Made by a program: the position numbers and the translations under genes
DNA from: Vulcanimicrobiota bacterium
Lineage (GTDB): Bacteria; Vulcanimicrobiota; Xenobia; Xenobiales; JADMJV01
Length of the DNA stretch: 64,000 nt
NCBI GenBank assembly: GCA_019637395.1
Contig: JAHBVR010000010.1
Coordinates: 248,001 to 312,000, forward strand
Direction: 5' to 3'
The notes under the pieces: generated by a model
Databases searched by the model: none
Told to the model about the DNA's origin: nothing
What the model saw: the letters and a program-made list of their open reading frames with translations, nothing else
In this document: positions 17,690 through 40,491 of the stretch, one piece after another
Layout of the letters: every line of letters starts with the position of its first letter
How positions within the stretch are numbered: the stretch's first letter is position 1

Positions 17690-18082
17690 ATGAAAGAAAA
17701 AGGACCCCTGGGGCACATCATTGCGGCGCTACGCGCCGTTCTGTGGTTGGGGGCTCGCGGCATTTGTCCGAAGTGCGGACGAGGCCGGATGTTCCGTAGC
17801 CACTTTCAAATTCACCGGGAATGTCCGGAGTGTGGGGTTGTACTGCAGCCCTATGCGGGCGACAGTCTGGGTGTCTACGCCGTTTGCTACTTCCTGACCG
17901 TGATCGCCACCGTGCTGGTGATGGCCGCGACTTACTTACTTTTCCACGTTACCTCACCCTACGTCTACCTGGGCCTGTTCTCGGTCACCTCGGGCCTGAT
18001 ACTGTTCGGCTTCTTTCCCAATATGAAAGGTATCTGGATCGCCTTCGTCTACCTGCTGACCGGACTGCGCCGCCAGCTCTAG
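17690..18082 (+). CDS. DUF983 family membrane protein
   Basis: A 130-residue protein with an N-terminal zinc-ribbon-like GICPKCGRGRMF...CPECG (two CxxC pairs about 20 residues apart) followed by YAGDSLGVYAVCYFL and two hydrophobic helices. This architecture is characteristic of DUF983, a small membrane protein family of unknown function. The TAG stop shares the palindrome CTAG (18079-18082) with the stop of the convergent response regulator gene. Confidence 0.9.
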   Translation: MKEKGPLGHIIAALRAVLWLGARGICPKCGRGRMFRSHFQIHRECPECGVVLQPYAGDSLGVYAVCYFLTVIATVLVMAATYLLFHVTSPYVYLGLFSVTSGLILFGFFPNMKGIWIAFVYLLTGLRRQL

Positions 18083-18936
18083 GCCCACATACGCTTATAC
18101 AGGCCCTCGAGTTCCGAGTTCAGCTGGCGCCGTTCCGGCGGGATGCGGCGCAGGGTGACGGCCAGGCTGAGTTCTTCAGCCGACACCTCAGCCTGCTTGA
18201 CCCGTTCCACAAACCGCCGGAAAGTGGCCCGGTCCACTTTCTCCGGAGAACGCTGGGAGGGCGACACGAAGCTTTTGTTCTCGGCTTCCTTGCTGAGGCG
18301 GGCGGACCAAAGAGCGTAACGGTCGAGCAGGCGCTTGGCGGCCTCGGCGGTAATGGCCGAGGTGTTGGCTATCTTTAAGTAGTCGACTTCCAATTCTTCC
18401 CAGGCGTCCCACAGGGCCAGCGCGGTCTCGGCGTAGTGGACTTTGGAGCGAATGGCCAGAAACAGGGATTTGAGACAAGCTTCGCGGGCGTTCTGCAGCT
18501 CCGCCAGGGCCTGATCGGGAGCGACCTGGCCGAGCACCCGGGACATGACCTGGCGATACCAGGACCTTTGCGAACGGGACTTGCGAACCCGTTCGACGGC
18601 CTGGCAGATATCGTGGACTTCGAATGGTTTGTAGAGATAATCGTCCACCCGGATCTGCAGAGCGCGCAAGGGAGCGGTCTGATCGGCGTAACCGGTGATG
18701 ACGATGCAGGCCAGGGCCGGGTGCTGCTGTTTGAGAGCTTGCAACACGCCCAAACCATCGGTGGGACCGGCCATGCGTATATCGGATATAACCAGGTCAT
18801 ACTCTTTCTCCCGGCCCAGCAGCAGAGCTTCGCGGGCCGAAGAGGCGGCCGTCACTTCATAATCCTGGGATTCCACCGCATCCACCAGCAGTTCCCGCAA
18901 ACTATCGTCGTCTTCCAGTACCAGAACGTGATTCAC
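18079..18936 (-). CDS. Response regulator with uncharacterised helical output domain
   Basis: Residues 1-120 are a receiver domain: VLVLEDDDSL acidic pocket, phosphoacceptor Asp52 in VISDIRMAGPTDG, conserved Thr in IVITGYAD and Lys in LYKPFE. The remaining 165 residues contain no HTH, GGDEF, AAA or other output domain I recognise, but look all-helical and align with the C-terminus of the response regulator at 39547-40491 (IRSKVHYAETALALW against IRSRKLLRTTALACW; similar YL and W-ending segments). The gene starts three bases after the stop of the histidine kinase, so the two form a cognate pair. Position next to a pseudopilin operon suggests control of that machinery. Confidence 0.88.
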   Translation of the reverse strand: MNHVLVLEDDDSLRELLVDAVESQDYEVTAASSAREALLLGREKEYDLVISDIRMAGPTDGLGVLQALKQQHPALACIVITGYADQTAPLRALQIRVDDYLYKPFEVHDICQAVERVRKSRSQRSWYRQVMSRVLGQVAPDQALAELQNAREACLKSLFLAIRSKVHYAETALALWDAWEELEVDYLKIANTSAITAEAAKRLLDRYALWSARLSKEAENKSFVSPSQRSPEKVDRATFRRFVERVKQAEVSAEELSLAVTLRRIPPERRQLNSELEGLYKRMWA

Positions 18937-18939
18937 CGA

Positions 18940-21084
18940 TTACTCCTCACAGATCGGCAGTTTAATCACAAAACAGGCACCCCCTCCCGGGGCCGGCTGG
19001 TAATTCAATTCACCCCCGTGGGCCACCAGGATTTCGCGCGAGATGGAAAGTCCCAGACCCACGCCGGCACCGACGTCGCGGGTGGTGAAGAAGGGGTCGA
19101 AAATGCGATCCACCACTTCATCCGGGACACCCGGGCCATTGTCCAGCACCCGCACTTCCAGCCAGGGTGGCTGGATGACGGTGCGGATGTGGATGCGGGG
19201 GCCGCTCACCCCGGCCAGGGCCAGGCGGCCGTTGACCAGCAAATTGATGAGCACCTGTTGAATTTCCCCGGCGTTGACCTGGACCAGAGCGTCCTCCCCT
19301 TCGAGGATCAACTCGATGCCCTCCAGTTGGAAAGACTGGTCCACCATTTGTACCGAGTCCTGGATGATTTCGGCCATGGAGACCAGCCTGCGACCCTCGC
19401 CGGACTCACGAGAGTAATTGAGCATTTTGCTGACGATGACGCGCATCTGTTCAATGGATTTGCGGGCCGTCTGCAGGCGGGCGGCGGCCTTCTCGGGATT
19501 TTTCTGCAGGTTGGTCATAGCCAGATCCCAGGCCATGCTGATGCTGCCCAGCGGGGTATTCAACTCATGGGCTACCCCGGCAGCCAGTTGGCCGATGGCC
19601 GCCAGCTTGCTGCTCTGCACCAGGCCGGCCTGGGCCTGGCAACGCTCCAGCGCTCCTCCGGCCAGCAGCAACCACAACCGTAAGGCCTCGACTTCAGCCT
19701 CCTCCAGCCCCTCGGCGGCGATAGTGAATTCTCCGCCCGAGAGCGGAAAGGCCATGGCTCCCGGGGGAGGTGTGCCGAGCTTGATGCCGGCGTGGGCCGC
19801 GGCGCACTCACGACCGGTCCAGTGGGCCGCCCGGTCGACGGTGAGCTGCAGAATCTCGCGAGGCTGAACCAGACTGGCCAGTTCACCGGCGCCTTGGAGG
19901 AGTGCTTGCAATCGAGTCACGGCCAGGCTAAGGTCCTTTCGCAGAGCGGCTTGGATATTCAAAGCCTGCACCAGGCTTTCTTGGTGTCGGACCCGATCGA
20001 GCATAACGTTGAGGTAGTAGAAGAAGACCTGCAACGTATGCTTCAATTCCGCACTCAGACACACGGGAACCAGGATCAGCACCAGGCCCCGGTGGGGCAG
20101 GGGCCAAGCCGCCTGGCTGCCCTCTTTGAGATCCCTTAGCCACGGTTCCTGCTGGGCCCAGGCGCTCTGCACTCCAATGCGCACCTCGGCGGCCACCGGG
20201 CTGGAAAACTCCGGGCCGGAGGGCCCCAGCGGCACGAACTCGCAATGGGCGCCGGGCAACTTCTCACGCAGCGCTTTAAGGGCCTGGTCCAAAGCCTGGC
20301 GCTCGGAAAGACCTTGAGCCGACAGTGTTTCCAATAGCTCGAAGGTATCGGCGCGGGCGTCCAGCAAGCGTTGCAGCTTGAGCTGGCGCTCCTCCGTTTG
20401 GCCCAGCATCTTCTCTTGAAACTGGACCTGATTGCGCGCTGAACGCAAGGAACTGTGCTGAGCTCTGCGTTCGTCCAGTTCCACTCCGGTATAGGCCGCC
20501 CGCAACAATCCCAGAATCGGAGGCCAGGTAGCCAACATCAGGGCGGGATGAATGCGCCCCAGCACGGCCGCGCACAGACCCAGGCTGACCAGGGCCGACT
20601 GCTCCAGGGTCAGGGTCGCCCGGTCTCTGCCGGCGCGGGAACGAGGCGCCATCCAGCGCGTGAGCAGGCGTGGCAGGCTGACCGCGGCCAGCCAAAAGAA
20701 GGGAATTCCCCACATCAGACCGAGGGTTCGGGCGGCCACGGCGCACAGGATGGCGGGCAAGAGATCCACTTGCAAGTCAGCCAGGGCTCCGTTGGGGGAA
20801 GCGGGTAAGATGGCGCTACGAAGGGCCAGGGCGCAGGCCAGGCAGGCCAGTACCCAGGGCAGGCCCAGTTGGTCCAAACCGGTCAGGGCTACGGCCCAAC
20901 AACAAGCGGGCGAGAAATAGCCGAGAGCCAGGGGAGTGGCCCGCAGCTCCAGGATGATACTGCTTACCAGAGCGAGGATGGCCAGCTGCGGCGAAGCCGG
21001 CCGGTCGCCGCTCCAGAAAGACCCGGCGATCAGGGCCACGCAGACCACCAGGCCGAGCATCCTGGCCACGCTATTTTCCGCCAC
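18940..21084 (-). CDS. Membrane-bound sensor histidine kinase
   Basis: A 714-residue kinase. About six or seven hydrophobic segments occupy residues 8-200, then a long helical linker and GAF-like stretch (about 210-490), a HisKA domain with AAGVAHELNTPLGS (His506) and a HATPase_c domain with N box (NLLVNGRLAL), G1 (DNGPGVPDEV), F box (DPFFTT) and G2 (GVGLGLSISREIL). All residues needed for autophosphorylation are present. Start GTG at 21084. It is coupled to the response regulator downstream and diverges from the prepilin operon beginning at 21168 across an 83-bp intergenic region, which probably holds both promoters. Confidence 0.92.
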   Translation of the reverse strand: MAENSVARMLGLVVCVALIAGSFWSGDRPASPQLAILALVSSIILELRATPLALGYFSPACCWAVALTGLDQLGLPWVLACLACALALRSAILPASPNGALADLQVDLLPAILCAVAARTLGLMWGIPFFWLAAVSLPRLLTRWMAPRSRAGRDRATLTLEQSALVSLGLCAAVLGRIHPALMLATWPPILGLLRAAYTGVELDERRAQHSSLRSARNQVQFQEKMLGQTEERQLKLQRLLDARADTFELLETLSAQGLSERQALDQALKALREKLPGAHCEFVPLGPSGPEFSSPVAAEVRIGVQSAWAQQEPWLRDLKEGSQAAWPLPHRGLVLILVPVCLSAELKHTLQVFFYYLNVMLDRVRHQESLVQALNIQAALRKDLSLAVTRLQALLQGAGELASLVQPREILQLTVDRAAHWTGRECAAAHAGIKLGTPPPGAMAFPLSGGEFTIAAEGLEEAEVEALRLWLLLAGGALERCQAQAGLVQSSKLAAIGQLAAGVAHELNTPLGSISMAWDLAMTNLQKNPEKAAARLQTARKSIEQMRVIVSKMLNYSRESGEGRRLVSMAEIIQDSVQMVDQSFQLEGIELILEGEDALVQVNAGEIQQVLINLLVNGRLALAGVSGPRIHIRTVIQPPWLEVRVLDNGPGVPDEVVDRIFDPFFTTRDVGAGVGLGLSISREILVAHGGELNYQPAPGGGACFVIKLPICEE

Positions 21085-21167: not shown

Positions 21168-21941
21168 ATGAGACGGGTGCGGGGGCTGAGCATGATCGAG
21201 ACGCTCTTTTCTCTTTTCTTCATCGCCACCACTCTGCTGCTCACCAGCCAGTTGCTGATCAGCGCCACCCAGTTGCAGCATGAGGTGGAGAAGGCCATGG
21301 GTGGGGCTCACCTGGCCGATCAAATTTTGAGCCAGGTACGGGCCAATGCCAAGAAGAGCGGCAACATGCCCACTCCGCAAAGCGGCGAGAACTTCGATTT
21401 TCCCGGCTATCAGTACCAAATCGAGGTGGTCAAAGCCGGTCTTTACTCTCCTTGTAGCACCCGAGAATTGCAATTCCCCGTGACAGAACGCCGCTGGATT
21501 GCCGATCCGGGGTGCCAGGTCAAAGTTACCGTTACCTGGGAACCGACCAGCGCCCGCAACCGGGCCGTGGCTTACGCCCTGATCTTACGGGAGTTGCCCA
21601 GGGTGAAGGAGCTGAGGGTCGACGCCGACGGGGGCAACACTCTGCCGGTAGCCAAAGATGGCACTGTCCAATACACGGCCAGGGCTGTCGACTCGGGGGG
21701 CCGAGAGGTTCCCGGGGTCTTCTTCAGTTGGTACTGCGCCCCCCGCACGGGCAATGGTTTGGCTGAGGCCAAGACGCGGGACGGGCGGACGGGACAGTTC
21801 ACGCACGTTTACAGAAACCCGTATCGCCCTGCTCCCACCTACTTCCCAGCCGGCAGCGAGTGCCTCTTGCGGACCCGGGCGCGCATCAACGGGAAGGAGT
21901 TTGAGTGCGACAGCAGCGCCATTCCTCTCACCGATATCTAA
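21168..21941 (+). CDS. Prepilin-like protein with Ig-like C-terminus
   Basis: A 257-residue protein whose N-terminus RGLSMIETLFSLFFIATTLL fits the type III prepilin signal: Gly before the cleavage point, Glu at +5 of the mature protein and a hydrophobic helix. Residues about 140-257 read as a beta-sandwich/Ig-like domain (VKELRVDADGG...VQYTARAVDSGGREV). It would be processed by a prepilin peptidase and inserted in the inner membrane as a pseudopilin (GspI/V-like). TAGAAT at 21153 lies nine bases before the ATG. It is the first gene of a coupled five-gene operon. Confidence 0.8.
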   Translation: MRRVRGLSMIETLFSLFFIATTLLLTSQLLISATQLQHEVEKAMGGAHLADQILSQVRANAKKSGNMPTPQSGENFDFPGYQYQIEVVKAGLYSPCSTRELQFPVTERRWIADPGCQVKVTVTWEPTSARNRAVAYALILRELPRVKELRVDADGGNTLPVAKDGTVQYTARAVDSGGREVPGVFFSWYCAPRTGNGLAEAKTRDGRTGQFTHVYRNPYRPAPTYFPAGSECLLRTRARINGKEFECDSSAIPLTDI

Positions 21942-22480
21942 AAGGCGGATTCTCGGTGCTGGAAGCCCTGATGACGCTGGGGCTGATCTGCCTGGTGCTG
22001 TCGATTTTGGGCAGTTTGTTTTCCAGTTACAGCCGCCTGCTCTTGCGCCAGGGTGACCGCCAAAAGTCCCTGCTCGGCTGTCAGGTGGCGGTGGACACGA
22101 TTCGGCGCGACCTGGTCTCTTGCATCAGCTTCTCGATCCCGACCCCAGAAACGTTGCACGTTGAGCAGATCGATCCGCTGGTCAGCTCTCGTCTGCCACG
22201 ACCGCTGCCCGATTCCGCGCCAGCCGACTGGCGGCCCCACCTGAATGAAGAGCGCTTAAAAATAGACTACCGGCTGGCTCGAGGCTCGGTGCTGCGCAAG
22301 ATCATCCGGGGCGGCGGAAGCAACTTCGAGGAAAATGTGACTGACGAAGTCGATGGGCTGGATTTTGACCTGACCACCAACGGCACTCTGCGGGTAACGG
22401 CGACCGCCCTGATTCAAGGCAATTTGAAGCGCTGGAGTGTGGAAATCGCTCCCCACCTGCCTGAGGAGCTCTACCCGTGA
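21905..22480 (+). CDS. PulJ/GspJ-like pseudopilin
   Basis: A 191-residue protein with leader MRQQRHSSHRYLK and processing site GG/FSVLEALMTLGLICLVLS, carrying the canonical Glu5. Size and the QVAVDTIRRDL segment after the helix match GspJ/PulJ-type minor pseudopilins that cap type II secretion or type IV pilus fibres. The best start is GTG at 21905, overlapping the preceding gene by 37 bases; no later start keeps the leader. Its stop overlaps the next start as GTGA. Confidence 0.8.
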   Translation: MRQQRHSSHRYLKGGFSVLEALMTLGLICLVLSILGSLFSSYSRLLLRQGDRQKSLLGCQVAVDTIRRDLVSCISFSIPTPETLHVEQIDPLVSSRLPRPLPDSAPADWRPHLNEERLKIDYRLARGSVLRKIIRGGGSNFEENVTDEVDGLDFDLTTNGTLRVTATALIQGNLKRWSVEIAPHLPEELYP

Positions 22481-22959
22481 CCCCCCGTGGCTTTTTACTC
22501 CCCCTGGCGCTCCTGATCGCCATGTTTTTCGGTATCATCGGAGGCGCCTTCCTCTACAGTCAATCGATTCTTTACCGCGGCACAGTAGGAGCCAATCTGC
22601 TGCTCCAGGCCCGCAGCCTGGCTGAGGTGGGCGTTGAAGACGCGCGCTGCAAGCTGCAGCGAGACATCGATTTTCCGCCGGCCGGCAGCGAAGAGCAAAC
22701 CGAGTACGCCTATGCCGAAACCTATATGGATCCGATCACCCGGGTGCGAGCCGGCAGCTATACCGTGGTGTTGGACCAAACTCACGCGAAAGCTCCCTAC
22801 TTCGTACTCGTGGTGCGTTCGACCGGCAGCGCCTCGAACGGAGACATTGACGTGATTAAAACGATTGTGGCTGAACTGGATGTCAGTCCTAAGGATCGGG
22901 ATGACCCGACCAAGGATAATCCCCACTATCTGCAAGTGCTGAATTGGCAGGAAAAATGA
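22477..22959 (+). CDS. PilX/GspK-like minor pilin protein
   Basis: A 160-residue protein with MTPRGFLLPLALLIAMFFGI at the N-terminus, a single hydrophobic helix and the LLLQARSLAEVGVEDARCKL segment typical of PilX/GspK N-terminal regions. As in GspK-type tip pseudopilins, Glu5 is absent (the residue after GFLL is Pro). Start GTG overlaps the previous stop (GTGA), and its TGA overlaps the next ATG. It probably joins the J-like and H-like partners at a fibre tip. Confidence 0.75.
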   Translation: MTPRGFLLPLALLIAMFFGIIGGAFLYSQSILYRGTVGANLLLQARSLAEVGVEDARCKLQRDIDFPPAGSEEQTEYAYAETYMDPITRVRAGSYTVVLDQTHAKAPYFVLVVRSTGSASNGDIDVIKTIVAELDVSPKDRDDPTKDNPHYLQVLNWQEK

Positions 22960-24929
22960 AAAGACGCGCAATGAGTCTAGCGGAACTGATGGTAGCCATG
23001 GGCATCATGGCACTTTTGACCGGCTTGGCGGTTTTGCCGCTGCGAGCCAAGTCGCCTCTGGCCAAAGCCAATCCTGACGCAGTGGCCACGGTGCTGTCCA
23101 GTGAGCTGCGCTCGGCCCGCCTGCGGGCCATGTCCAAGTCGATGCCGGTGGGTGTGATCATTCCCAGTCAGAACGGGAGCCGAGGCCATTCTCAGTCGAT
23201 TTACGTGCTGGAAGGCTATCTGCCGGGAGCCAGCCCGCGCAATCCGATCCTACCGCCGGAGCCACCTCCCAAAATGGTGCGAGTTCTCGATTTTTCCAAG
23301 GAATATCCGGGCGTTTACATCTACGCCGGCGGCTGGGACGTCGACAGCGCCGCCCTCACCGAGCCCACCCTGACCCCCGCCATCGGTGATAGCCTGGGGA
23401 CTTCCCTGGAAAATTGGACCAAGCCCACCAACAAAGATTACCAGTTGGTCTTTATGCCGGACGGCCGCGTCATCAGCAATGACCTGCCCCATTTTGACGG
23501 AAACTTCCACCTGGTGGTGGCGGCCAATCTCAGTTACACCACGACCGGGCCTCCACCCGGGACGCCCAGCATGACCACCTCGCCGGCCTATTTCAAATTG
23601 ACCGGCGTGCATCAGCCCATCACGCTGTCGATCAGCCTGCAAGGTGGAGTGGCCAGCACCAAAGCCTTGCTGGCCAGCACCGGAGTGGTCGACTGCCAGG
23701 CCGGAGCTCCAAGCATTCCGGCCGCTGGAGCCCCTTTGCTGAGTCTGGTGGTCAACTCCCCGCCCCAGGTGGCCGACGTGACCATCATGCCGCCGCCCAA
23801 TCCCGATCCAGATCTTTCGGGAGGATTTGATGCCGTAGTCCGACCAGATGGCTTCCTGACACTGGTGATTCGCATTGTCGATCCTCAGGGAGATCAGGTT
23901 TCCTGTCAATGGAACGATGAAGAGGTGGGTGGAGCACGCACCGGCTCCTTCACCATCCCCCCGGGCAAGCAGAGCATCGAGTACGACGCCGTGCAGGGCT
24001 GCTGGATAGCCTCGGCCATCTGGCAACCTCCCGTGGACGCCCGATCGGGCGATCGATTTCGCCTGACAGCCACCGTCAGCGATCCGCTGGGGGCCAGCTA
24101 CACCCTGGACGGCGACGCCGCCATCAAGGTGGAAACCCGTAACGCCGGGCGCTTCTTCTTCAGCGACCAGGGCTACGTGTGCAGCCTGAACGGTGACGGC
24201 AGCGGCATTCGCCGCCTGGCCCGCGGCACCGACCCGGAAGTTTCTCCTGACGGCTCCATGGTGGCTTTCCTGCAAGGTACCGACGTGGCCGTCATGCAAT
24301 CGGACGGCTCCCAGGTCAAGGTGGTGGCCACGGGTGAATTGGGCTCGCCTACCTGGTCTCCGGACGGCCTCTACCTGGCCTTCGACCAGGGCGGCACGGA
24401 AGTAAAATTTGTGCGGCTGCACGACAAAAAGGTGTCTACGGTGGCCTTGCCGGGCTCGCGTCCGCGCTGGTCGTCTCGGGATGTGCTGGTTTACCAGCAA
24501 CCGGGCACCACCGTGACCCAACTGACCACCGCGCCGATTGTGGCCGGCAACCTCTTTCTGTCCACCCCGGTGCCGCCCACGCCGACCATGATCACCCTGC
24601 CGGCCCCGCACGACGCCAGCAATGTCCAAAACGCGGCCTGGAGCAGCGACGGCGGTTACCTGACTTTTCAGACCAGCGCGGGCATTCTTTCCTGCGATGC
24701 GGCCGGAACCACCGTGGTGGAACGCTATACTCCCCCTCCGGGAAGTACCGCCCAACGGAGTTGGATGATGGTGGGCGAACCGGCTACCAAGATGGTCTTT
24801 GTGGAAAGCAGCAGCGGCAACGGCAAGCTCAAGATGTGCAACGTAAACCTCTCCGACGCCAACCCGGCTGGAGCCACGGTAGTGTTGCGCACGGGCCAAC
24901 TCGACGGGTCCTGTTCTTGGGTCCCCTGA
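22956..24929 (+). CDS. GspH-like prepilin fused to a TolB-like beta-propeller
   Basis: A 657-residue protein. MKRRAMSLAELMVAMGIMAL gives an Ala/MSLAE processing site with Glu5, followed by the SSELRSARLRAMSKSMPVGV stretch found after the helix in GspH-type pseudopilins. Residues about 240-390 are Pro/Gly-rich beta sequence. Residues about 390-657 are PD40/TolB-like propeller blades with repeated SPDGSMVAF, TWSPDGLYLAF, RWSSRDVLVY and AWSSDGGYLTF motifs. The ATG at 22956 overlaps the upstream stop (ATGA) and follows CAGGAAAA; an alternative TTG lies at 22944. Pseudopilins are normally 150-250 residues, so the added domains are exceptional. Confidence 0.85.
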   Translation: MKRRAMSLAELMVAMGIMALLTGLAVLPLRAKSPLAKANPDAVATVLSSELRSARLRAMSKSMPVGVIIPSQNGSRGHSQSIYVLEGYLPGASPRNPILPPEPPPKMVRVLDFSKEYPGVYIYAGGWDVDSAALTEPTLTPAIGDSLGTSLENWTKPTNKDYQLVFMPDGRVISNDLPHFDGNFHLVVAANLSYTTTGPPPGTPSMTTSPAYFKLTGVHQPITLSISLQGGVASTKALLASTGVVDCQAGAPSIPAAGAPLLSLVVNSPPQVADVTIMPPPNPDPDLSGGFDAVVRPDGFLTLVIRIVDPQGDQVSCQWNDEEVGGARTGSFTIPPGKQSIEYDAVQGCWIASAIWQPPVDARSGDRFRLTATVSDPLGASYTLDGDAAIKVETRNAGRFFFSDQGYVCSLNGDGSGIRRLARGTDPEVSPDGSMVAFLQGTDVAVMQSDGSQVKVVATGELGSPTWSPDGLYLAFDQGGTEVKFVRLHDKKVSTVALPGSRPRWSSRDVLVYQQPGTTVTQLTTAPIVAGNLFLSTPVPPTPTMITLPAPHDASNVQNAAWSSDGGYLTFQTSAGILSCDAAGTTVVERYTPPPGSTAQRSWMMVGEPATKMVFVESSSGNGKLKMCNVNLSDANPAGATVVLRTGQLDGSCSWVP

Positions 24930-25409
24930 ATGAGCCAATCACGACGCCGCGTCCAATTCTCCACCTCCTGGAGCGAGCGCCTGAGCCGGCTGCGCCTGGA
25001 CCGCTCCAGCTTCGTGATAGGCTTCTGCCTGCTGGGGCTGGCCGGAGGGGTCCGCGTGCTTCAGGGTGACGCGAAGGCCACGAGCGGCCCTTCTCGGGGC
25101 CCGGCCATGAGACAATTTGATTTGAAAGTCCAGGGTGAATTTACTGGACTGAGTCCCGCCCAACTTCAAGAAACGGAAGTGACCCTCTATTTTCCGCAAC
25201 TACCCTACAAAGTCACCAGGGATTGGGACGAACTGGAGCACCCTCGGCCGGAGGCTTTCGTAATGCCTGTCCAGTTGCGGGCCGCGGCCTCCGCCAGCCT
25301 GTGTTACCTGCGTCTGCAAGTTCGCGACCAGACTCTGCAGGCCGGCAAGATTCAGGTGGAGGCGGGTAAACCGGCCGCCAGCTTCCCGGCCTTTCAGGTC
25401 AAACTCTAA
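24930..25409 (+). CDS. Hypothetical membrane-anchored protein
   Basis: A 159-residue protein I do not recognise. A basic N-terminus (SRRRVQF...) precedes one hydrophobic helix (SSFVIGFCLLGLAGGVRVL), then a soluble, beta-rich domain containing TEVTLYFPQLPYKVTRDW. Its ATG directly follows the stop of the prepilin-propeller gene, so it is likely the last gene of that operon and could be an accessory inner-membrane component. Its TAA overlaps the stop of the convergent platform-protein gene by four bases. Confidence 0.7.
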   Translation: MSQSRRRVQFSTSWSERLSRLRLDRSSFVIGFCLLGLAGGVRVLQGDAKATSGPSRGPAMRQFDLKVQGEFTGLSPAQLQETEVTLYFPQLPYKVTRDWDELEHPRPEAFVMPVQLRAAASASLCYLRLQVRDQTLQAGKIQVEAGKPAASFPAFQVKL

Positions 25410-26533
25410 CCCAGGTTACCGATGAAGGAGTACATGGGCACGAAGATGGAGAGCACCACGGTGGCGATGATGCTGGCCACACCTCCCAGCAGCAGAGGTT
25501 CGATGGCGGCGCTCAGACACTCCACCAGGTAGTTGCATTCTTCCTCATAATAGGCGGCCGCCCGGCCCAGCAGTTCCGGCAGTTGCGACACTTCCTCACC
25601 GGCCGCTACCAGGTGAACCAGCGTGGGGGGGTAGAGGTCCCGATCGCCTTCCATATGAGCCGAGGCCAGTTCGCCCTCTTGAATAGCCTTGGTCAGGTTA
25701 GCAGCATCCTTTTCCAACAAGGGGCTGCCACTGGAGGCGGCGGCCAGTTTGTAGCACTTGGTCAGTTCCAACCCCGAGTGTATCAGGTTGGCGGCGGCCG
25801 CGCTAAATCGGGCCAAAGCACCGGCCTTCAGCATGCTGCCCAATCCAGGCAGGCGCAGCACCCAGCGATAAGCGATGATTCTCAAACGCCGACGATTAAG
25901 CACATATTGCACACCGCCAAAGGTCAGTCCGAAAAGGGAAAAGCCCAGCAGCCACCCGCCCGGACTGCGAATGATATCGGTTATGGCCATCACCACCCGG
26001 GTGACCAGCGGCAGAGGAATGTTCATCTCGCGGAAGATCTGTAAGAAACCCGGCAACACGGTATAGAAAAGTAACAGGGTGAGAGTGCCGGCCACCGAGA
26101 GAATCAGGGCCGGGTAGGTCAGGGCCGAAATGATTCGCTGGCGTAGCGCTTCGTCTTTCTCCAGCCAGAGAGCCAGCCGGTCCAGAGATTGGTCGAGCTG
26201 GCCTACGTGTTCTCCCATGCTGGCCATGCTGACGTAGATGGAGGGAAAAACCCGGGGAAAGTGCGAGCAGGCGTTGGAAAAGGTATGACCCGCGGCGATC
26301 AGATCGGCCACCACGGTGACCACCTTGCCCAGATCAGGACAATCTTCATTGTGCTGCAAGGTATCGAGGGCCTGTAGCAAAGGCACGCCGCCCAGAAGCA
26401 TGGCGCTGAGCTGGCGAGTAAAAAGAGCCACCACCCGGGGTGGGACCCGTACTCTTCGGTAGGTTGATTCCAGCTCCATGTCGGGGGTCAAGTTGGGGGA
26501 AGTTCGCATTCCAGCGGAGGTAACCCTACTCAT
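25406..26533 (-). CDS. Type II secretion/type IV pilus platform protein (GspF/PilC family)
   Basis: The polytopic inner-membrane platform that couples the assembly ATPase to pseudopilin polymerisation. VPPRVVALFTRQLSAMLLGGVPLLQALDTL is replaced here by its key parts: FTRQLSAMLLGGVPLLQAL in the first T2SSF domain, ISALTYPALILSVAGTL at the first membrane helix, then ARFSAAAANLIHSGLELTKC and VHLVAAGEEVSQLPELLGRA in the second T2SSF domain, with a final helix. The start at 26533 is chosen because GGAGGGG sits just upstream; the frame is open to 26647. Length 375 is normal. It lies convergent to the pseudopilin operon. Confidence 0.9.
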   Translation of the reverse strand: MSRVTSAGMRTSPNLTPDMELESTYRRVRVPPRVVALFTRQLSAMLLGGVPLLQALDTLQHNEDCPDLGKVVTVVADLIAAGHTFSNACSHFPRVFPSIYVSMASMGEHVGQLDQSLDRLALWLEKDEALRQRIISALTYPALILSVAGTLTLLLFYTVLPGFLQIFREMNIPLPLVTRVVMAITDIIRSPGGWLLGFSLFGLTFGGVQYVLNRRRLRIIAYRWVLRLPGLGSMLKAGALARFSAAAANLIHSGLELTKCYKLAAASSGSPLLEKDAANLTKAIQEGELASAHMEGDRDLYPPTLVHLVAAGEEVSQLPELLGRAAAYYEEECNYLVECLSAAIEPLLLGGVASIIATVVLSIFVPMYSFIGNLG

Positions 26534-26643
26534 TGTCGTTGTCCCCTCCGCCGCTGTCCTCTTCAGTCTAGCGGATGGGTCTAATGGATGGCCTATTTTT
26601 TTGGGAAGAATGTGAACAACTTGTAACAGATCTGGCGTTGATA

Positions 26644-27810
26644 TCAATCAGCCTGGCCGCGGTCCGCCATGCGGGCATAGGTATGGGCCACTGAATCGCA
26701 GACCCAGTCCAGCAATTGGCGGTACTTGTCATTCTCCACCGCCTTAAGGCCGGAAAAGTCGGTCTGAATAGAGTGGTTGGCCACGACGATGCCCCAGCCG
26801 TCCTCGGCCAGGGCGGGGAGGTCGATGACCTCCAGTCCGAGCCCGTAGTGGACCAGCTGCAACTTACCCAGCGAGCGTCTGACGCGGAAGAAAGTGGCGT
26901 GGCAGCGAATCAACGAACCGATCCAGGGAGAATAGTCCAGCGGCAAAACCCAGTCCGGCAACAGCGGTAGCTGGTTCCCCTCGGCTCTGGCCGTCTGCAT
27001 GGGCGGGTACGCCAACGGGCCGGCGATTTCCAAAATCCCCAGAGATTCGTCCGACTTGGGGCCACAGATCTCGGGAAACCCGTCTAGAAAGATACGGTGT
27101 GCCGGCCAGGCGTGGGGTGGCGCGGCCGCCAGAGCGGCGGAAGCCTCGGGAGGAGCCAGGACCAGGCGCCGAAAAATCCGGTAGGCCTGAGTCGGTCCGG
27201 ACTTGGGCAGCGTTTGGAGCGCTTCTCCCTGGGCCAGCGGGCGGCTGTCTAAAAACAAGGGGAGGGGACAGTAGCGCAGGGCCGAGCCCAACTGGTGGCT
27301 GAGCAGGGTTACCAATTTTTTAAAATCGGCGTCGGCGGCCGCCGGCCGATAGAGCATTACCACGCGGCGATAGGCGGGAGGCAGGGTCTGGCGGGTTTCG
27401 CTGCCGGCGGCGAGACGGTAGAGGCTGCCTCCCTGAGCATCCTGGCAGAGCAGTTCCACGCTTTGGGGCCCGAGCGCCTGCGCCCAGAGTAAGGCGGAAT
27501 AGAGGAAAGCAGCCGCTTTGGAGCGCTGGCCCGATTGGTCCAACACTTGATCCGGGGTAAACGTCTCCTGGTCCAGCAGAATCTCCACGCTGATGCTGGC
27601 GCGGGAACAACTTACGTTGAGCCCCAGAGCCCGCGCAGCCACACCCGCTTGAGCCAGGAAATAGACCCAACGGGCCGGATATTGTCGGGATAGATCGCCG
27701 ATTTTGGAGAGCGCATGTTGCCAGTCGATGGTGAAGGAACCGCTGGAATCGAGACTGCCCTCCGAAAGCGCGCCGTCGATGAACTGCTCGAGCTTGCTGG
27801 CCCCTTCCAT
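26644..27810 (-). CDS. Uncharacterised protein, paralog of the 61310-62686 product
   Basis: A 388-residue protein of no family I can name. The N-terminal LDSSGSFTIDWQHALSKI and a central stretch of mixed alpha/beta sequence resemble YDSTGAFTLSLGEARRKL in the protein at 61310-62686, and the C-terminal VVANHSIQTDFSGLKAVEND resembles VVATPDLEVDLSQFSP there. No signal peptide or membrane helix is evident. Its ATG overlaps the TAA of the membrane-protein gene upstream (TAATG), so the two are co-translated. Confidence 0.7.
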   Translation of the reverse strand: MEGASKLEQFIDGALSEGSLDSSGSFTIDWQHALSKIGDLSRQYPARWVYFLAQAGVAARALGLNVSCSRASISVEILLDQETFTPDQVLDQSGQRSKAAAFLYSALLWAQALGPQSVELLCQDAQGGSLYRLAAGSETRQTLPPAYRRVVMLYRPAAADADFKKLVTLLSHQLGSALRYCPLPLFLDSRPLAQGEALQTLPKSGPTQAYRIFRRLVLAPPEASAALAAAPPHAWPAHRIFLDGFPEICGPKSDESLGILEIAGPLAYPPMQTARAEGNQLPLLPDWVLPLDYSPWIGSLIRCHATFFRVRRSLGKLQLVHYGLGLEVIDLPALAEDGWGIVVANHSIQTDFSGLKAVENDKYRQLLDWVCDSVAHTYARMADRGQAD

Positions 27811-28661: not shown

Positions 28662-28693
28662 CTTGAGAGTTTTGGCCCATCGGATAAAAAGCC

Positions 28694-34060: not shown

Positions 34061-34600
34061 TTAGTATAACTCGTTTTTTAGCAATCGCCCGTTCTCCAAA
34101 AAGCTTTCTACGGTCGGGGACGATCCCTTCACTACAGAGTCAGGTAGGGACCAGGGACAAGGCTTGAAAGGGCCTCTTTCCATACCTCCCCAAGTCTGTT
34201 CTCCTTTCGAGACCCAGGCGTGCCCCGTTGGCATCACTGCCAAAATTAAGCGATCTCCGAGGATGGCAGTAGGAGCTATATCTATGACTGCGGGGAAAAG
34301 GGAGTCTTTGATCAAATGCTCAAGCAATTGGTCTTCTGCCAGAAGCTTCTTGCTTTGGCCGAATAGGAAGAGTTGGTAGCAAACCGTATGGTCCTCAAGC
34401 TTCACTTTAAAAGTCTCGAGATTTCGGGCAATTTCGGCCCTGGCTGAGTGTAACCAGTTCGCGATCTGATTCCTAGCATTCACGGGTGTTTCTTGATCTT
34501 TCCAAATTGTCCAAAGTGGTCCATGTGAACCGTCCGCTTCTCCCATACCTTCTCCGAAGCGGACCGCAATTAATTCAGCGTTCCTTTCATTTGAAGCCAA
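34061..34600 (-). CDS. Hypothetical protein
   Basis: A 179-residue protein with no recognisable family. It has a helical N-terminal half (NARNQIANWLHSARAEIARN) and a hydrophobic beta segment (AILGDRLILAVMPTGHAWVS). Base composition is noticeably less GC-rich than the neighbours, which may mark recent acquisition. If the start at 34600 is right it overlaps the end of the kinase gene by 31 bases; a later start is possible. Treat the function as unknown. Confidence 0.5.
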   Translation of the reverse strand: MASNERNAELIAVRFGEGMGEADGSHGPLWTIWKDQETPVNARNQIANWLHSARAEIARNLETFKVKLEDHTVCYQLFLFGQSKKLLAEDQLLEHLIKDSLFPAVIDIAPTAILGDRLILAVMPTGHAWVSKGEQTWGGMERGPFKPCPWSLPDSVVKGSSPTVESFLENGRLLKNELY

Positions 34601-35985
34601 TCCGCATACACTTCTCCCAGGGTCGGGTAGCGTTTCACAGGGTCTTTCTCCAGCATGCGCGCCAGCAGCAGGGAAACCGGCCTGGGTACGTGTTCGGGAA
34701 AGGGCTTATAGGCCGCATGAAGAGATTCACTCATAACCACCATAAAATTGTTGGGGTCGTTCTTAAAGGGAAACTGGTGGCACCACATTTCATAGCCGAT
34801 CACCCCCAGGGCCCACTGGTCCACCGAGGGGGTGGCGGCTCCGGCGATCTGTTCTGGGGCCATATAAGCGGGAGTGCCGGGGGTATAGCCGGTCTGGGTA
34901 GCCTTGGACGTATGCGGGGATTTGGCCAGTCCAAAGTCAATGATTTTGAGGTTGCCTTTTTCGTCCAGCATGATGTTGGCTGGTTTCAAATCGCGGTGCA
35001 GCACCCCCAGTTTGTGGGCCTGGACCATGGCCTCCAGAGCCTGCTGAAAAAGCCGACAAGCCTCCTGGCGAGAGAGCGGGCCCCGAGCCAGGTGGTCGGC
35101 CAGGGAAAGCCCTCCCACATGTTCAAAAACCAGGCTGATGGGCGACAGTCCCCCCAGCGCCGGGGTACCGTTCACCACCTGGGTTCCATCCGAACGGCTC
35201 GGCGCGGGAGCTTGGGACTCTTCCGGCCTGGCGGTGGTCTTGTACCCGTCCGGCCAATCGAAATCGAGCAATTTGACGATGTGGCCATGGTCCAGAGATT
35301 TCAGCGCCACGATTTCATTGCGCAGCCGCAGCAAATCGGTTTCGTTCTGAGGAACGACGAGTTTCACCGCCACCGCCTGGCGAGGATCCAGGCTGTCTTG
35401 AGGCAATGCTTTATAAACGGTTCCATTGGCCCCCTGTCCCAGGCGTTTCACCAGCGTCCAGCGGATGACATTGCGTCCCAGATTCGGATCCGGGTCCGAT
35501 ACTTTCTGCCGGCTCAGCTCCTCATATTGTTGCTGACGGACCCGTTCGCGTTGGCGCACTCGCCGAAAACGCCACACTCCCGCCGCGGCAAACGCACTCA
35601 GAAGAGCCAGCAGCCAGCCATAGCGCCGCCCATAGAAGTGTAGGGGGGAGCGTAACGCCAACTGCAGAGGCGGCTGGGAAGCAGGAGGAAAGGTTCCTCC
35701 CTGCAGTTGGTCCCAACGCAATACCTGGGGCAAGCTCTGGTAATCTCCCTGGGGATCCTGAAACTCCAGGCGTCTCTGATCCTCGCGCTGGCCGGTCAGA
35801 AAGTCTTTGCGGTACAAGGTCACCTTGCCTTGCCGAGCGGGCTGCAGTTGGTCGTTTAAATACACCTCGGTGGCCGGCTTGGTGCGAAACTCCACCTCCA
35901 CCACCTCCACCGGCTGTGCGACTCCCCAAGCCGAAATCAGCCAAACCAACAACAGCGAGCCCAGTCCTCTCCGAGGAAAAATCAC
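34570..35985 (-). CDS. Membrane-anchored Ser/Thr protein kinase with extracytoplasmic PEGA-like domain
   Basis: A 471-residue kinase of the bacterial PknB/Hanks type with unusual order: N-terminal signal/anchor (LGSLLLVWLISAWGVAQP), an extracytoplasmic domain of about 90 residues with a PEGA-like start (RTKPATEVYLNDQLQPARQG), one transmembrane helix (YGWLLALLSAFAAAGVWRF) and a C-terminal cytoplasmic kinase domain. Catalytic motifs are intact: GQGANG, VAVKLVV, HRDLKPANIM, IIDFGLAK and YMAPEQI. Start GTG 35985 overlaps the stop of the pseudopilin gene upstream (GTGA); this fixes the start, although the frame is open to 36273. It ends a coupled secretion/pilus operon and may sense fibre assembly. 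Confidence 0.92.
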   Translation of the reverse strand: MIFPRRGLGSLLLVWLISAWGVAQPVEVVEVEFRTKPATEVYLNDQLQPARQGKVTLYRKDFLTGQREDQRRLEFQDPQGDYQSLPQVLRWDQLQGGTFPPASQPPLQLALRSPLHFYGRRYGWLLALLSAFAAAGVWRFRRVRQRERVRQQQYEELSRQKVSDPDPNLGRNVIRWTLVKRLGQGANGTVYKALPQDSLDPRQAVAVKLVVPQNETDLLRLRNEIVALKSLDHGHIVKLLDFDWPDGYKTTARPEESQAPAPSRSDGTQVVNGTPALGGLSPISLVFEHVGGLSLADHLARGPLSRQEACRLFQQALEAMVQAHKLGVLHRDLKPANIMLDEKGNLKIIDFGLAKSPHTSKATQTGYTPGTPAYMAPEQIAGAATPSVDQWALGVIGYEMWCHQFPFKNDPNNFMVVMSESLHAAYKPFPEHVPRPVSLLLARMLEKDPVKRYPTLGEVYADWLQMKGTLN

Positions 35986-36569
35986 AGAGCGCCGGCTGCC
36001 AGTTCGGGATTGGGAGAGGCCGTCAAACTGGTCGATTGCGTCCCCGAGGTCCAACTCAGGCGCACGGCCCCTTCCAGCTTCTCCACCTTCAGGGTATCCA
36101 CGGCCATGAAGCGCAGGTCCTTCTCCAGAGAATCGCGGGCCAGGATCTGCTGCAAAGCCGTCGGCTCGATGGCCAGCACCCGGTCTCCCGGTAGCGGTGG
36201 CGTGGCCGGCAGCCGGCGCCGCAGCAAACGGCCGTCCTGGACAGCGTAATGCAAGACCTGGTTGCACTTCCACAGGTTCTGGTCGCTCAACTCCAGCACG
36301 GGCAGCAAGGCGACGGAAGTGGAGTCCACGCTGACCCCCGCCGGCGGGGTCGTTTCCAGGTCAGCTCGGAACTGGCGCCCGAACTGCAGCCCCAACAGCT
36401 CCTCATTAACCTCCGCCGTCAAGGGGCGAGACTTGCGTAAGAGTTCGATGACCACTTCGCTGCTGATAAGCAGAACCACCAGGGCCAGGGCCATGGCCAC
36501 CAGCACCTCCACCAGGCTGAACCCTTGCTTGCCTCGTCTGCGCTGCAAAATCGGCCTCCTTCCGCTCAA
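35982..36569 (-). CDS. PulJ-like pseudopilin
   Basis: A 195-residue protein with leader MSGRRPILQRRRGKQ and processing site G/FSLVEVLVAMALALVVLL, including Glu5. The post-helix LLGLQFGRQFRADLETTPP and overall size fit GspJ/PulJ minor pseudopilins. Start TTG at 36569 overlaps the preceding stop (TTGA). It corresponds in role to the gene at 21905-22480 in the first locus, though the two share little beyond the pilin helix. Confidence 0.85.
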   Translation of the reverse strand: MSGRRPILQRRRGKQGFSLVEVLVAMALALVVLLISSEVVIELLRKSRPLTAEVNEELLGLQFGRQFRADLETTPPAGVSVDSTSVALLPVLELSDQNLWKCNQVLHYAVQDGRLLRRRLPATPPLPGDRVLAIEPTALQQILARDSLEKDLRFMAVDTLKVEKLEGAVRLSWTSGTQSTSLTASPNPELAAGAL

Positions 36570-37945
36570 AGAGTAAATAACGGGTTGGCCACCGAGAAGA
36601 TATCCTGGCGGTTATTGGTGTCGTTTTCCACCAGGTTGGTGGCCTGGCTGGCAAAAACGATGCGCGAACCGTCGGCGCTGATGCGGGGAGAGCCACAGCG
36701 GCCGTTGGGCGGGGTGAATCCCAGTCCCCAGGAGACGCGTTTGCACACATTATTGAGCGTGTCGTAAACATAGACGTCCAGGAAACCATTGGTGTCGGAG
36801 CCGTCCAGATTGGTGGAGTCGGACTGAAAGACGACGAAGCGGCCGTCCCCGGAGATGCCCGGAAAGTCCGAGTCGCCATTGCCCTGGGTTCCGTCGCTGG
36901 CCACCGAGACCCGCCGGGTGGTGCCGGTCATCGTGTCGCGCACAAAGATGTCAGAAAACCCATTGGTGTCTCCGGCCACCAGGTTGCTGGCCTCCGAGTC
37001 AAAGACCACGAAGCGGCCGTTGCTGCTCAGAGCGACGCTATCGCTGAATCCGCCCAGGAAGCCGGAGTTGTTGTTGGCGGGAACGCCCCCCAGACCCACG
37101 CTGATCAAGGTGGTGGCGCCGGTGGCCGGCTGCTTCAAGAAGACATCGCGGAACCCGTTGGTGTCACCGGTTACCAGGTTAGTGGCCTCCGAAATAAAGG
37201 CCACGAAATTGCCGTCCTTGGAAATTTCAGCCCCGTAAGAATCGCCGTCACCTTGCACGCCAGCTGAATCTGTGCTAATCAGGCTAATGCTATTGGTGCT
37301 GATAATACGTAAGAAAACATCTTCGAAACCATTAGTGTCAACGGGCACCAGATTAGTGGCCAGGGATTCAAAGGAGACCCGGTCCCCATCTGCGGAGATC
37401 CCGACATTGGCACTGCTTTCGTTGCCCTGCACGCCTCCCGCCGACACGCTCAGACGCACAATGGCACCACTGCTGCGATCTTTGCGAAAGGTGTCGATGA
37501 AGAAATTGGTGTCGCCCGGCACCAGTGTCTGGGCAGCCGACTGGAAGGCCACGAACTGGCCGCTGGCCGAAACTTTGGCTTGTACGCTGCCGCCCACGGT
37601 GGGGGCGACTCCGGCGGCGTCGGTGCTGACGATGGCCAGAGTCTGAGCGGTCCGATCTCGGGCAAAAACGGCCCCGTTGGGATTGGCTCCGAAGGCAAAG
37701 GACTCAAACACGATCAGGCCACCGTTGGCAGTGATATCCGGAGTCCCTCCATCCCCCTGGGCCTGGCTGCTGTCCACACTCTCGCGCACGATGCCGGTGG
37801 TGGGAGTCGGCGTCGGGGTGGTTGTGGCTGTCGGCGAGACCGTTGGAAACGGGCCGGTCCACACGAACTGTTCGTCGCTGCCGCAGCCGTAGGCCAGCAG
37901 TGCGGCGCTCAACACGGCGGCACCTCGCCAGAAGTTCTTAGACAT
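36566..37945 (-). CDS. TolB-like beta-propeller lipoprotein
   Basis: A 459-residue exported lipoprotein: MSKNFWRGAAVLSAALLAYGC ends in a lipobox (LAYGC), followed by a Pro/Thr linker. The body is about seven blades of roughly 52 residues, each built as VAFxSxATNLVxGDTNGxxDVFxRD then TTxxSVxxxGxQGNGxS and ISxDG. This is the TolB/PD40 propeller class. It begins three bases after the PilX-like gene and overlaps the following pseudopilin gene, so it is part of the assembly operon. In the first locus the matching propeller is fused to a pseudopilin instead. Confidence 0.88.
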   Translation of the reverse strand: MSKNFWRGAAVLSAALLAYGCGSDEQFVWTGPFPTVSPTATTTPTPTPTTGIVRESVDSSQAQGDGGTPDITANGGLIVFESFAFGANPNGAVFARDRTAQTLAIVSTDAAGVAPTVGGSVQAKVSASGQFVAFQSAAQTLVPGDTNFFIDTFRKDRSSGAIVRLSVSAGGVQGNESSANVGISADGDRVSFESLATNLVPVDTNGFEDVFLRIISTNSISLISTDSAGVQGDGDSYGAEISKDGNFVAFISEATNLVTGDTNGFRDVFLKQPATGATTLISVGLGGVPANNNSGFLGGFSDSVALSSNGRFVVFDSEASNLVAGDTNGFSDIFVRDTMTGTTRRVSVASDGTQGNGDSDFPGISGDGRFVVFQSDSTNLDGSDTNGFLDVYVYDTLNNVCKRVSWGLGFTPPNGRCGSPRISADGSRIVFASQATNLVENDTNNRQDIFSVANPLFTL

Positions 37946-37948
37946 CAG

Positions 37949-39550
37949 TTACCTCCAGGAAATCTGTTGAATGGGCAAGCTCAGTCGCAACTGGCTCTCT
38001 TTGGCGATAAATTTATTCAGATCCAGCGAAAAATGCCCCTCGGCCAGGGACTTGCGCTCCAGTTCTTTCTGATACTCTTCGTCGAGCCGGGCAACCTGGG
38101 GCTTGAGGTTTTCGATGGCCTTAGCTTGCTGCTGAGTGAAGAAGGTTCGCCAGTCGCTATAGGGCTGGGGGGGGAGTTGCCCTGTCCGCTCCATGGTTCT
38201 GGCCCCTTCTTCGGCACTGGCAAAAACATCTAATCTCCAGGCCATAGGTACGTGGGTGGCGTCCACCCGCTCGACGTTGAATCCGCCCTGGCCGTTGTTC
38301 ATGCTCGGGTCAAAGAAGTCCTGAGCCCCGCCCACTTTCACTCCCTGCCCCCTTCCGTCATCGGCGGGCGCGAAGGGGAGCAGCGGATACTTGATGGCAA
38401 AACTCTGGCCCACTTCGCTCTGCAGAGCGGTGACATTGTTCATCTTCAAAGGAGCGGCGGAGCTGCCGGAGTCGGATAGGAAAGCACCGACCAGCGTGAT
38501 CTTCTCGGCGGTGAACTGGCCCTGGCAGTAGAGCAGGCCATAGAGGTAGGTATCCGGACCCTTGCCCCGCACCGTTAGATCCCCGGTACAGCAGACCGCC
38601 AGCTCCTGATTGGAGCGCAGCGCCACCCCGTCCTCGATGACCACGTTGCCGTCCACGAAGACAGCCCCCAGACCGGAGATTCCGCCCCGAATGTGCAAGT
38701 TACCCTTGATGTAAAGCACCGCCTCGCTCAGTTCCAGGCCGCCGCTTTCAATGACCAGCCCGTCCGCCGCCCGGCACCAGCCACGCAACACGGTTCCCGG
38801 ACTGTTGGCCGGTAACTCCCGAAGAAAGGGCCGTCCGGCCGTATCATAACTCCTGACATCCAGGTGGGGCAGGTCCACCTTCTGATGCACCACCCCGCCG
38901 CGCACCACCGCCCCCCTCAGCTCGGCCCGCCCGGGTGTGCGCACCGCCCCCGCCACCGAGCTATTCCCCTCCAGCACCACGGCCGGATCGCCCGAGGACA
39001 AACTGGCCACATCAGCCGGATGGAGATTTTCCATGGTCATCGGATTGGGCAATTCATCCGAGTTCCTGATCGCGCCCACCAAAAAATTCCCCGTGACCGT
39101 GATCGGCCCGGTGGCCGCAATGGCAAATGGGTATTTGGGAGTGTGCAGAACGCATTTCAGGGCGCGTCGGGTCCTGCCCTGAACTCCCGTGGCCATCAAT
39201 AAGACACTGTGGGCCGGCACCGGCTGCTGCCCGAAGCCCATGGTGGGCTTGTCGGCGGCGTAATTGTTGATGGAATACGGCTCCTCTGGGGAAATGGCGA
39301 AGCTCAGCTTGCCCTTGGCTCCGTCCGGCATCTCGACTTGAAGCGGCCGGGCAAACTCAAAATCTCGTTGTACTTCAGCAATTCCCATCTGCAGTACACT
39401 ACGCGCCGCCTGCAGTGCGGCCTCCTCCTGGCGAAAAAAATTCATCTGAGTAGCGTTTCCGTAACTGGCCTGGAGAATAGCAGCTAACACCGAAGCCACC
39501 AGGGCCAGCACCATCAGGACATAAAGGAGAACGTGGCCTCGTCTCCTCAT
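37949..39550 (-). CDS. PilX-like protein with beta-helix-like domain
   Basis: A 533-residue protein. The N-terminus (MRRRGHVLLYVLMVLALVAS) is a PilX/GspK-type hydrophobic helix followed by AALQAARSVLQMGIAEVQRD. Residues about 150-370 are short regular beta strands (LYIKGNLHIRGGISGLGAVFV; VDGNVVIEDGVAL; GDLTVRGKGPDTYLYG), suggestive of a right-handed beta-helix like bactofilins. The C-terminal 110 residues are helical. It overlaps the upstream response regulator gene (ATGA). It is far longer than an ordinary PilX and may be a tip or surface component. Confidence 0.75.
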   Translation of the reverse strand: MRRRGHVLLYVLMVLALVASVLAAILQASYGNATQMNFFRQEEAALQAARSVLQMGIAEVQRDFEFARPLQVEMPDGAKGKLSFAISPEEPYSINNYAADKPTMGFGQQPVPAHSVLLMATGVQGRTRRALKCVLHTPKYPFAIAATGPITVTGNFLVGAIRNSDELPNPMTMENLHPADVASLSSGDPAVVLEGNSSVAGAVRTPGRAELRGAVVRGGVVHQKVDLPHLDVRSYDTAGRPFLRELPANSPGTVLRGWCRAADGLVIESGGLELSEAVLYIKGNLHIRGGISGLGAVFVDGNVVIEDGVALRSNQELAVCCTGDLTVRGKGPDTYLYGLLYCQGQFTAEKITLVGAFLSDSGSSAAPLKMNNVTALQSEVGQSFAIKYPLLPFAPADDGRGQGVKVGGAQDFFDPSMNNGQGGFNVERVDATHVPMAWRLDVFASAEEGARTMERTGQLPPQPYSDWRTFFTQQQAKAIENLKPQVARLDEEYQKELERKSLAEGHFSLDLNKFIAKESQLRLSLPIQQISWR

Positions 39551-40491
39551 GGCGCCCCTCTGGTGGCGGCCAGTTCGGGCAGTTCAAATTCCGCTGGCAA
39601 GCCGCCGCTGTAGGAGCGATCCCAGCAAAATCGGTAAAAGGAGGTCAGGGCGGGGGATGCTTCGCGCATCTCCAAGGGAGTGACCCGAACCACTGTCACC
39701 GAGGATAAATGCTCCGCCGCCATTGCCCCCTGGACGATTCGTTCGTACAGCACATTGAATTCGTTCTGTGGGATTTCGGACTGCTCGGAAGGCTGTACCT
39801 TCTGATCCTCGGCCCAGGACTCCATGTGCGAGCGCGCTTGCTGCAACGCCGCAATCCATTCCGCTACCGGCGCTCCCACAAAATCCTGACGCCGGGCCGT
39901 CAAATAAGAAAGTTCCACCTTTTCAAAGAGCTGCCAACAAGCCAGGGCGGTCGTGCGCAGTAACTTGCGAGAACGGATCAGAGTATAGAAGCTCTGTAGA
40001 AACTCCCCACGGACCTGCTCGAGCTTCTGCATCGAATGAGTCTGCAGTGCCTTGAGACGATTCTGAACCAATTGTTTAGGTAATTGCAAAAGCCGATTGA
40101 GCAGGCCTTCGTTGAAGTGCTGCGTTTGGCGGCTTTTGCTGCAGCGACTTAGCGCTTTGCGCAACTCCTCGTGATCGAACGGTTTATAGAGATAATTTTG
40201 GACCAACAATTTCGCCGCTCGCAGCGGCACTTGCTCGTCCGCATAGCCCGTCATCACCACGCATTGAGCCTGAGGGCGGTATTGTTTGAGCTTGGACACC
40301 ACCTCGACCCCGTCCATCTCACCGGGCAGGCGCACGTCGGTCAAAATTACGTCAAAAGGAAAGTCTCGACCCATCCTCAGGGCCGCCGAACCGTCTTCAG
40401 CGGTCTGGATCTCAAACTCTTCATCCAGGGTCTCGGCAAGCAATTCCCTCAGATTCTCGTCATCTTCAATGATGAGGAGGCGGGGCTTCAT
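39547..40491 (-). CDS. Response regulator with the same unknown output domain
   Basis: A 314-residue protein. The receiver domain (residues 1-120) has LLIIEDDENL, phosphoacceptor Asp52 in ILTDVRLPGEMDG, CVVMTGYAD and YLYKPFD. The C-terminal 190 residues lack any known output fold but share spaced similarity with the regulator at 18079-18936 (FYTLIRSRKLLRTTALACW; YERIVQGAMAAEHLSSVTVV; final FYRFCW). The ATG at 40491 overlaps the stop of the platform-protein gene, and its own stop overlaps the PilX-like start. No histidine kinase is adjacent; the kinase at 18940 or the Ser/Thr kinase in this operon are candidate partners. Confidence 0.88.
   Translation of the reverse strand: MKPRLLIIEDDENLRELLAETLDEEFEIQTAEDGSAALRMGRDFPFDVILTDVRLPGEMDGVEVVSKLKQYRPQAQCVVMTGYADEQVPLRAAKLLVQNYLYKPFDHEELRKALSRCSKSRQTQHFNEGLLNRLLQLPKQLVQNRLKALQTHSMQKLEQVRGEFLQSFYTLIRSRKLLRTTALACWQLFEKVELSYLTARRQDFVGAPVAEWIAALQQARSHMESWAEDQKVQPSEQSEIPQNEFNVLYERIVQGAMAAEHLSSVTVVRVTPLEMREASPALTSFYRFCWDRSYSGGLPAEFELPELAATRGAP

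Follow-up and report, generated by a model that had tools for sequence, protein, structure and literature searches.

Two response regulators with a shared output region

The output domain determines what a two-component system does. Here, we analyzed 64,000 nucleotides of an uncultivated, Eremiobacterota-type Vulcanimicrobiota bacterium (hereafter the window; G000:C2:248001-312000, within a 7.66 Mb genome of 36 contigs), which encodes two response regulators, RR1 and RR2, each in a cluster with genes for a T2SSF (GspF/PilC-type) pilus platform and prepilin-like proteins (Table 1). Both are receiver (REC) proteins with a homologous, uncatalogued, all-helical C-terminal output region (hereafter the tail). 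The first-pass annotation of this DNA had described their receivers as normal, and our results agree: Response_reg (E ~1e-24) was the sole Pfam family found (residues 4-115 of RR1 and 6-114 of RR2), NCBIfam recognized the receiver only, and the receiver in the AF2 model of RR2 reached Z ~20-21 to CheY/Spo0F in structure comparison. The key receiver residues of RR1 are E8, D9, D52 (the phospho-acceptor), T81 and K103, and the set E,D/D/T/K is complete in both proteins. Judged by these residues, both receivers are intact and should be phosphorylatable.

The similarity between the two proteins extends through their tails. BLASTP aligned 293 amino acids (32% identity, 56% positives, E 5e-50), pairing IRSKVHYAETALALW with IRSRKLLRTTALACW, YLKIANTS with YLTARRQD and the W-ending last helices just as had been quoted when the tails were first proposed to be homologous. 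When the RR1 tail was used as a lone query, RR2 was matched at E 2.4e-10 among 16 matches in the genome; thus, the likeness of the tails is far beyond chance. The tail comprises ~167 amino acids in RR1 and ~195 in RR2, including ~24 unconserved C-terminal residues.

Properties of the output domain

We consider the tail almost certainly a real, uncatalogued domain. Across 41 tails, a [VI]RS motif was near-invariant and the most conserved positions (RR1 numbering) were R151, R163, S164, A172, E180, E183, Y207, F239 and W284, each at least 82% conserved. From an alignment of only 7 sequences, AF2 modeled the RR1 tail as all-helical (mean pLDDT 79.5, pTM 0.71), and the full-length RR2 model had a pLDDT of 80.1 and a pTM of 0.81. 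No convincing or consistent family was found for 22 tails in Pfam (E up to 1) and NCBIfam, and a sequence profile search of PDB with the tail revealed no confident relative. The best PDB matches (E 0.01) were to a myosin/alpha-actinin chimera and were dismissed as chance helical similarity, covering only ~50 residues. Comparison of the tail model by Foldseek (best E 0.3, prob 0.15) and VIA, in which a designed 3-helix bundle scored highest (Z 7.8), returned generic helical bundles that we did not take as relatives; a Z <8 in VIA is evidence neither of a new fold nor of a known one. It should be noted that VIA with full-length RR2 retests the receiver and not the tail. Among recognized DNA-binding output domains (OmpR, NarL, NtrC, LytTR and BTAD types), only the receiver part of the models was matched.

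Taken together, these results bear out the earlier suggestion of a new helical output module, and the profile search for a known output domain, set beforehand as its refuting test, gave no convincing match. The receiver is ordinary, and the novelty lies in a lineage-specific output for which Pfam, NCBIfam and PDB sequences contain no counterpart at the search sensitivities applied here. The one paper found to name Eremiobacterota together with response regulators concerns photoactive yellow protein.

Occurrence of the tail

Of the 17 copies of the tail in the genome, 16 were identified by the tail profile, and the remaining, divergent one is on contig C33. The family divides into nine short REC-tail proteins (~284-336 amino acids) and eight long REC-tail-pseudokinase proteins (~518-709 amino acids as called), the latter forming a single clade in the tail tree. 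In the long forms, the tail is near-neutral and placed between the receiver and a C-terminal domain that, in a profile search, matched PDB Ser/Thr kinases (best StkP, E 6.7e-7). By eye, the alignment of the eight long proteins lacks VAIK, HRD and DFG, while APE, SDQ-like motifs and a C-lobe Arg are kept. This C-terminus is therefore pseudokinase-like.

Within the phylum, the tail was detected in 13 of 149 genomes, all of which fall in the class to which the window belongs (13 of its 18 genomes, compared with 0 of 131 elsewhere); thus, at this level its occurrence is restricted to a single class. A close-relative pattern scan beyond the phylum, based on three close tails, found only near relatives, the named ones being Candidatus Eremiobacterota metagenome-assembled genomes and isolate SZAS-1. 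A query of receiver plus tail was swamped by ordinary receivers and left out of the counts. In one case (L074, G033), the tail gene was missed by the gene caller, and its position beside T2SSF was taken from profile-match coordinates. The presence of 17 copies in one genome of a domain absent from Pfam and NCBIfam represents a catalogue gap for a little-studied phylum.

Gene neighborhoods in the window

The histidine kinase gene located 3 bp upstream of RR1 likely encodes its partner, and the same kinase-regulator order is found in L058-L061. No HATPase_c gene was found near RR2, the nearest being the RR1 kinase ~20 kb away. On the opposite strand to RR1 lies an array of prepilin-like genes, in which Pfam N_methyl was matched in the 661-amino-acid open reading frame (ORF) and the other prepilin-like N-termini were judged by eye. 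The 3' end of the T2SSF gene of the RR2 cluster overlaps the RR2 start by 4 bp (ATGA). The true start of the Ser/Thr kinase gene in this cluster is probably downstream of the called one. Elsewhere in the window, the minus strand contains one unusually large ORF (2462-15667; 4401 amino acids; repetitive, Gln/Glu/Leu-rich and apparently coiled-coil) and two ORFs resembling broken transposase halves (45478-46554; IS1182/IS5-like by eye).

Table 1 Features of the RR1 and RR2 clusters (window positions)
Feature	Position	Strand	Details
RR1	18079-18936	-	285 amino acids
RR1 receiver domain, residues 1-118	18583..18936	-	GTG start; Pfam Response_reg E 1.8e-24
RR1 uncatalogued helical output domain, residues 119-285 + stop	18079..18582	-	Sequence comparison, model
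Histidine kinase (HisKA + HATPase_c)	18940..21084	-	Pfam HATPase_c 8.6e-22, HisKA 5.7e-12
Divergent pseudopilin/PilX-like array	21168..24929	+	Genes 21168-21941, 21905-22480, 22477-22959, 22944-24929
T2SSF (GspF/PilC-type) platform of RR1 cluster	25406..26647	-	Pfam T2SSF at C2:273436-274422
Ser/Thr protein kinase gene of RR2 cluster	34570..36273	-	Pkinase 1.9e-47, kinase domain residues 273-549
Prepilin-like protein of RR2 cluster	35982..36569	-	N_methyl E 2e-7 at C2:284465-284539
PilX-like protein	37949..39550	-	By sequence; start overlaps RR2 stop by 4 bp
RR2	39547-40491	-	314 amino acids; 324 if upstream TTG is start
RR2 receiver domain, residues 1-118	40138..40491	-	Pfam Response_reg 5.1e-24
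RR2 uncatalogued helical output domain (to ~residue 290) + short C-terminal extension	39547..40137	-	
T2SSF platform protein of RR2 cluster	40488..41642	-	T2SSF matches C2:288518-289447

Relationship between the tail and pilus platform genes

The genome has ~43 T2SSF genes (86 domain matches), and 62 N_methyl prepilin matches were counted among the matches listed. Altogether, 9.3% of the genome lies no more than 9 kb from a T2SSF gene, and six of the nine short copies are in this portion (binomial p 4.1e-5), compared with only one of the eight long copies (p 0.54; no enrichment). Clusters on other contigs have the orders REC-BTAD, response regulator, T2SSF, PilX-like, prepilins and histidine kinase (C27, L014) and prepilins, T2SSF, response regulator, histidine kinase, PilT and REC-BTAD (C15, L011). 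About eight strong PilB/GspE-type ATPase matches and a dozen shorter PilT-like ones were found in the genome, so that platforms far outnumber motors.

The association recurs in many lineages among relatives. Direct tail-T2SSF neighbors, in both gene orders, are RR2 in the window, L011, L014, L021, L059, L063, L069, L072, L073, L075, L076, L080 and L082. The more distant genomes within the class have 14 copies, of which 9, by our own count, lie in T2SSF/prepilin clusters. The RR1 orthologue L059 has the order histidine kinase, response regulator and T2SSF, with pilin genes further out, and L060 the order T2SSF, histidine kinase and response regulator. In the f2 family, whose sole tail copy adjoins T2SSF, the tail gene directly follows it (L072, L073, L075 and L076). 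Pilus-linked copies are scattered over the tail tree, while the long forms, mostly unlinked, group together. As a separate observation, an opposite-strand ORF overlapping the regulator stop in L009 (8527-9102) and L061 (10474-11055) has a PilC/GspF-like N-terminus (MPQFRFRVVTPDGRVRSGRF...) and no T2SSF domain; it is possibly a split-off platform part.

All catalytic receiver residues are kept in nearly all copies, the exceptions being in one family. The acceptor Asp is replaced in L072 (Gly) and L073 (Ala), where the Thr is also lost; the acceptor position is Asn in L075; and L076 keeps the acceptor, yet its receiver is not recognized by the local profile. In this family (G029, G035 and G017, and G023 in part), the tail stays beside T2SSF with a receiver in which the acceptor Asp or another of the key residues is lost; despite receiver decay, the tail therefore serves some function there even though the phospho-switch is not operative. 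L072, L073 and L076, all with decayed receivers, share a conserved neighborhood of T2SSF, tail gene, a 'DWVHENY' membrane protein and a MutL-like gene.

The remaining short copies occur in other settings. L010 (contig C2, 4627-8156) directly follows gyrA, its start overlapping the gyrA end; its downstream synteny is kept in L062 (JALHOV010000406), where the contig is cut before gyrA. L012 (contig C20, 3184-8915) heads a pel-like exopolysaccharide locus recognized by eye, with PelF- and PelG-like proteins (by eye), a TPR protein and a STAS-like protein. L013 precedes a penicillin-acylase-like gene. Since these three short copies and seven of the eight long ones lie far from any T2SSF, the domain is not invariably linked to pili; the link is statistically real and extends over most of the tree, but it is no rule. 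The earlier description of the tail as tied to pseudopilin clusters is thus partly right: the short copies are enriched near T2SSF here and recur beside it in relatives, but matches do not always adjoin GspF/PilC and prepilin genes.

Possible mode of action of the tail

We tentatively favor the reading that the tail is a protein-contact output on the local pilus or pseudopilus machine, which appears quite possible, if short of probable. It is favored by the repeated adjacency to T2SSF in both orders, by the tail outliving the receiver, and by the fact that several clusters have a REC-BTAD protein of their own, plausibly a separate DNA-binding regulator. Contact of the tail with the platform itself would be in keeping with the gene order and has a precedent in PixG, discussed below. 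According to this model, the kinase encoded alongside RR1 would phosphorylate its receiver, and RR2 would be phosphorylated by some kinase. Phosphorylation would free or dimerize the basic helical tail, which would then dock on the assembly machine of its own cluster, either at the cytoplasmic face of T2SSF or at the assembly ATPase engaging it, and docking would turn filament assembly on or off. The gyrA, pel-like, acylase and REC-tail-pseudokinase copies would represent this contact module redirected to other targets following duplication. In addition, the excess of ~43 T2SSF genes over only ~8 strong ATPase matches raises the idea, doubtful at present, that this class-specific domain is a phospho-controlled, cluster-specific gate on the platform of its own cluster, by which a small set of shared PilB/PilT-type motors is allotted to selected platforms.

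Several observations weigh against contact with the pilus machine. Besides the short and long copies located away from T2SSF, the short tails are mostly basic (pI ~8-10.7, a few acidic), which suits DNA or RNA binding too, and no REC-BTAD gene was seen in either window cluster, so that the window tail proteins could be transcription regulators themselves. A mirror-tree comparison of tail and T2SSF (with a REC control) at first seemed platform-specific but was dropped as contact evidence once the histidine kinase was included: the tail correlates at least as well with the histidine kinase, and the signal therefore shows co-inheritance only. The tail may instead be an unrecognized DNA- (or RNA-) binding output through which these proteins locally regulate transcription of their neighbors, such as the pilin clusters and the pel-like locus. 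Regulators are commonly encoded near their own targets, RR1 and its kinase stand divergent to the pilin array, and the three non-pilus short copies adjoin other operons, all of which, like the basic charge, would fit this possibility. We nevertheless regard it as rather unlikely, given that no tail matches any DNA-binding domain family, that the long forms carry a near-neutral tail between receiver and pseudokinase, that several clusters already have a REC-BTAD regulator, and that copies without the acceptor Asp remain next to T2SSF.

It is also unlikely that the tail is a generic bundle for dimerization or signal relay that lacks a pilus-specific partner, takes its specificity from other proteins and was often recruited near platforms because ~43 T2SSF genes are available. 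The enrichment near T2SSF holds once T2SSF abundance is allowed for, and the one tail copy of the f2 family adjoins T2SSF, although the non-pilus settings, the pseudokinase fusions and the generic three-helix bundles from VIA (Z <=7.8) would all agree with such a bundle. Finally, all eight long forms have a kinase-related C-terminus, and some of the short-form clusters have active-looking kinase genes within or next to them (window 34570-36273, L021, L068, L078 and L080). The tail might therefore act on protein kinases, with short forms acting on a neighboring Ser/Thr kinase and long forms being a fused dead version, in a relay from histidine kinase to Ser/Thr kinase. However, with ~93 Pkinase matches in the genome, the ~3 of 9 short copies within ~7 kb of one are, by eye, not evidently above chance, and we consider this very improbable. 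On balance, the tail proteins represent a new switch module, whose likeliest target would be the pilus machine.

Comparison with known systems

The closest precedent is provided by the PATAN regulators PixG, PixE and LsiR of cyanobacteria, in which a non-DNA-binding output is tied to type IV pili (PMC12288463, PMC7690835); phosphorylated PixG of Synechocystis interacts with PilC and PilB1 (PMC12288463). The likeness would lie in a receiver protein with a non-DNA-binding output and a type IV pilus link. On the other hand, PATAN is a family of its own, named for the PatA N-terminus and located N-terminal to the receiver, whereas the output described here is C-terminal and all-helical, with binding only inferred. 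No PATAN/DUF4388 match was found in full RR1 and RR2 (E up to 10) or in 22 tails (E up to 1).

Other systems share single features with RR1 and RR2. In PorX-type proteins (REC, helical region, PglZ), a receiver is likewise followed by a helical region, and the RR2 receiver gave Z ~19 to PorX; however, RR2 has no PglZ, and the alignment stops by residue 137, short of the tail. REC-BTAD (SARP-like) proteins are receiver proteins in pilus clusters of the same class, but their output is BTAD, a transcription-activator domain that is already known and has no relation to the tail. Single-domain response regulators that act by contact, such as an exopolysaccharide activator (PMC12802240), offer a further likeness in that a phospho-switch reportedly affects cell-surface machinery through protein contact; such regulators have no output domain, unlike RR1 and RR2. 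If the tail acts on the platform, it would bear on the choice of filament in a genome where platforms number in the dozens and motors are few, and would represent a second, unrelated-looking answer to the problem solved by PATAN regulators in cyanobacteria.

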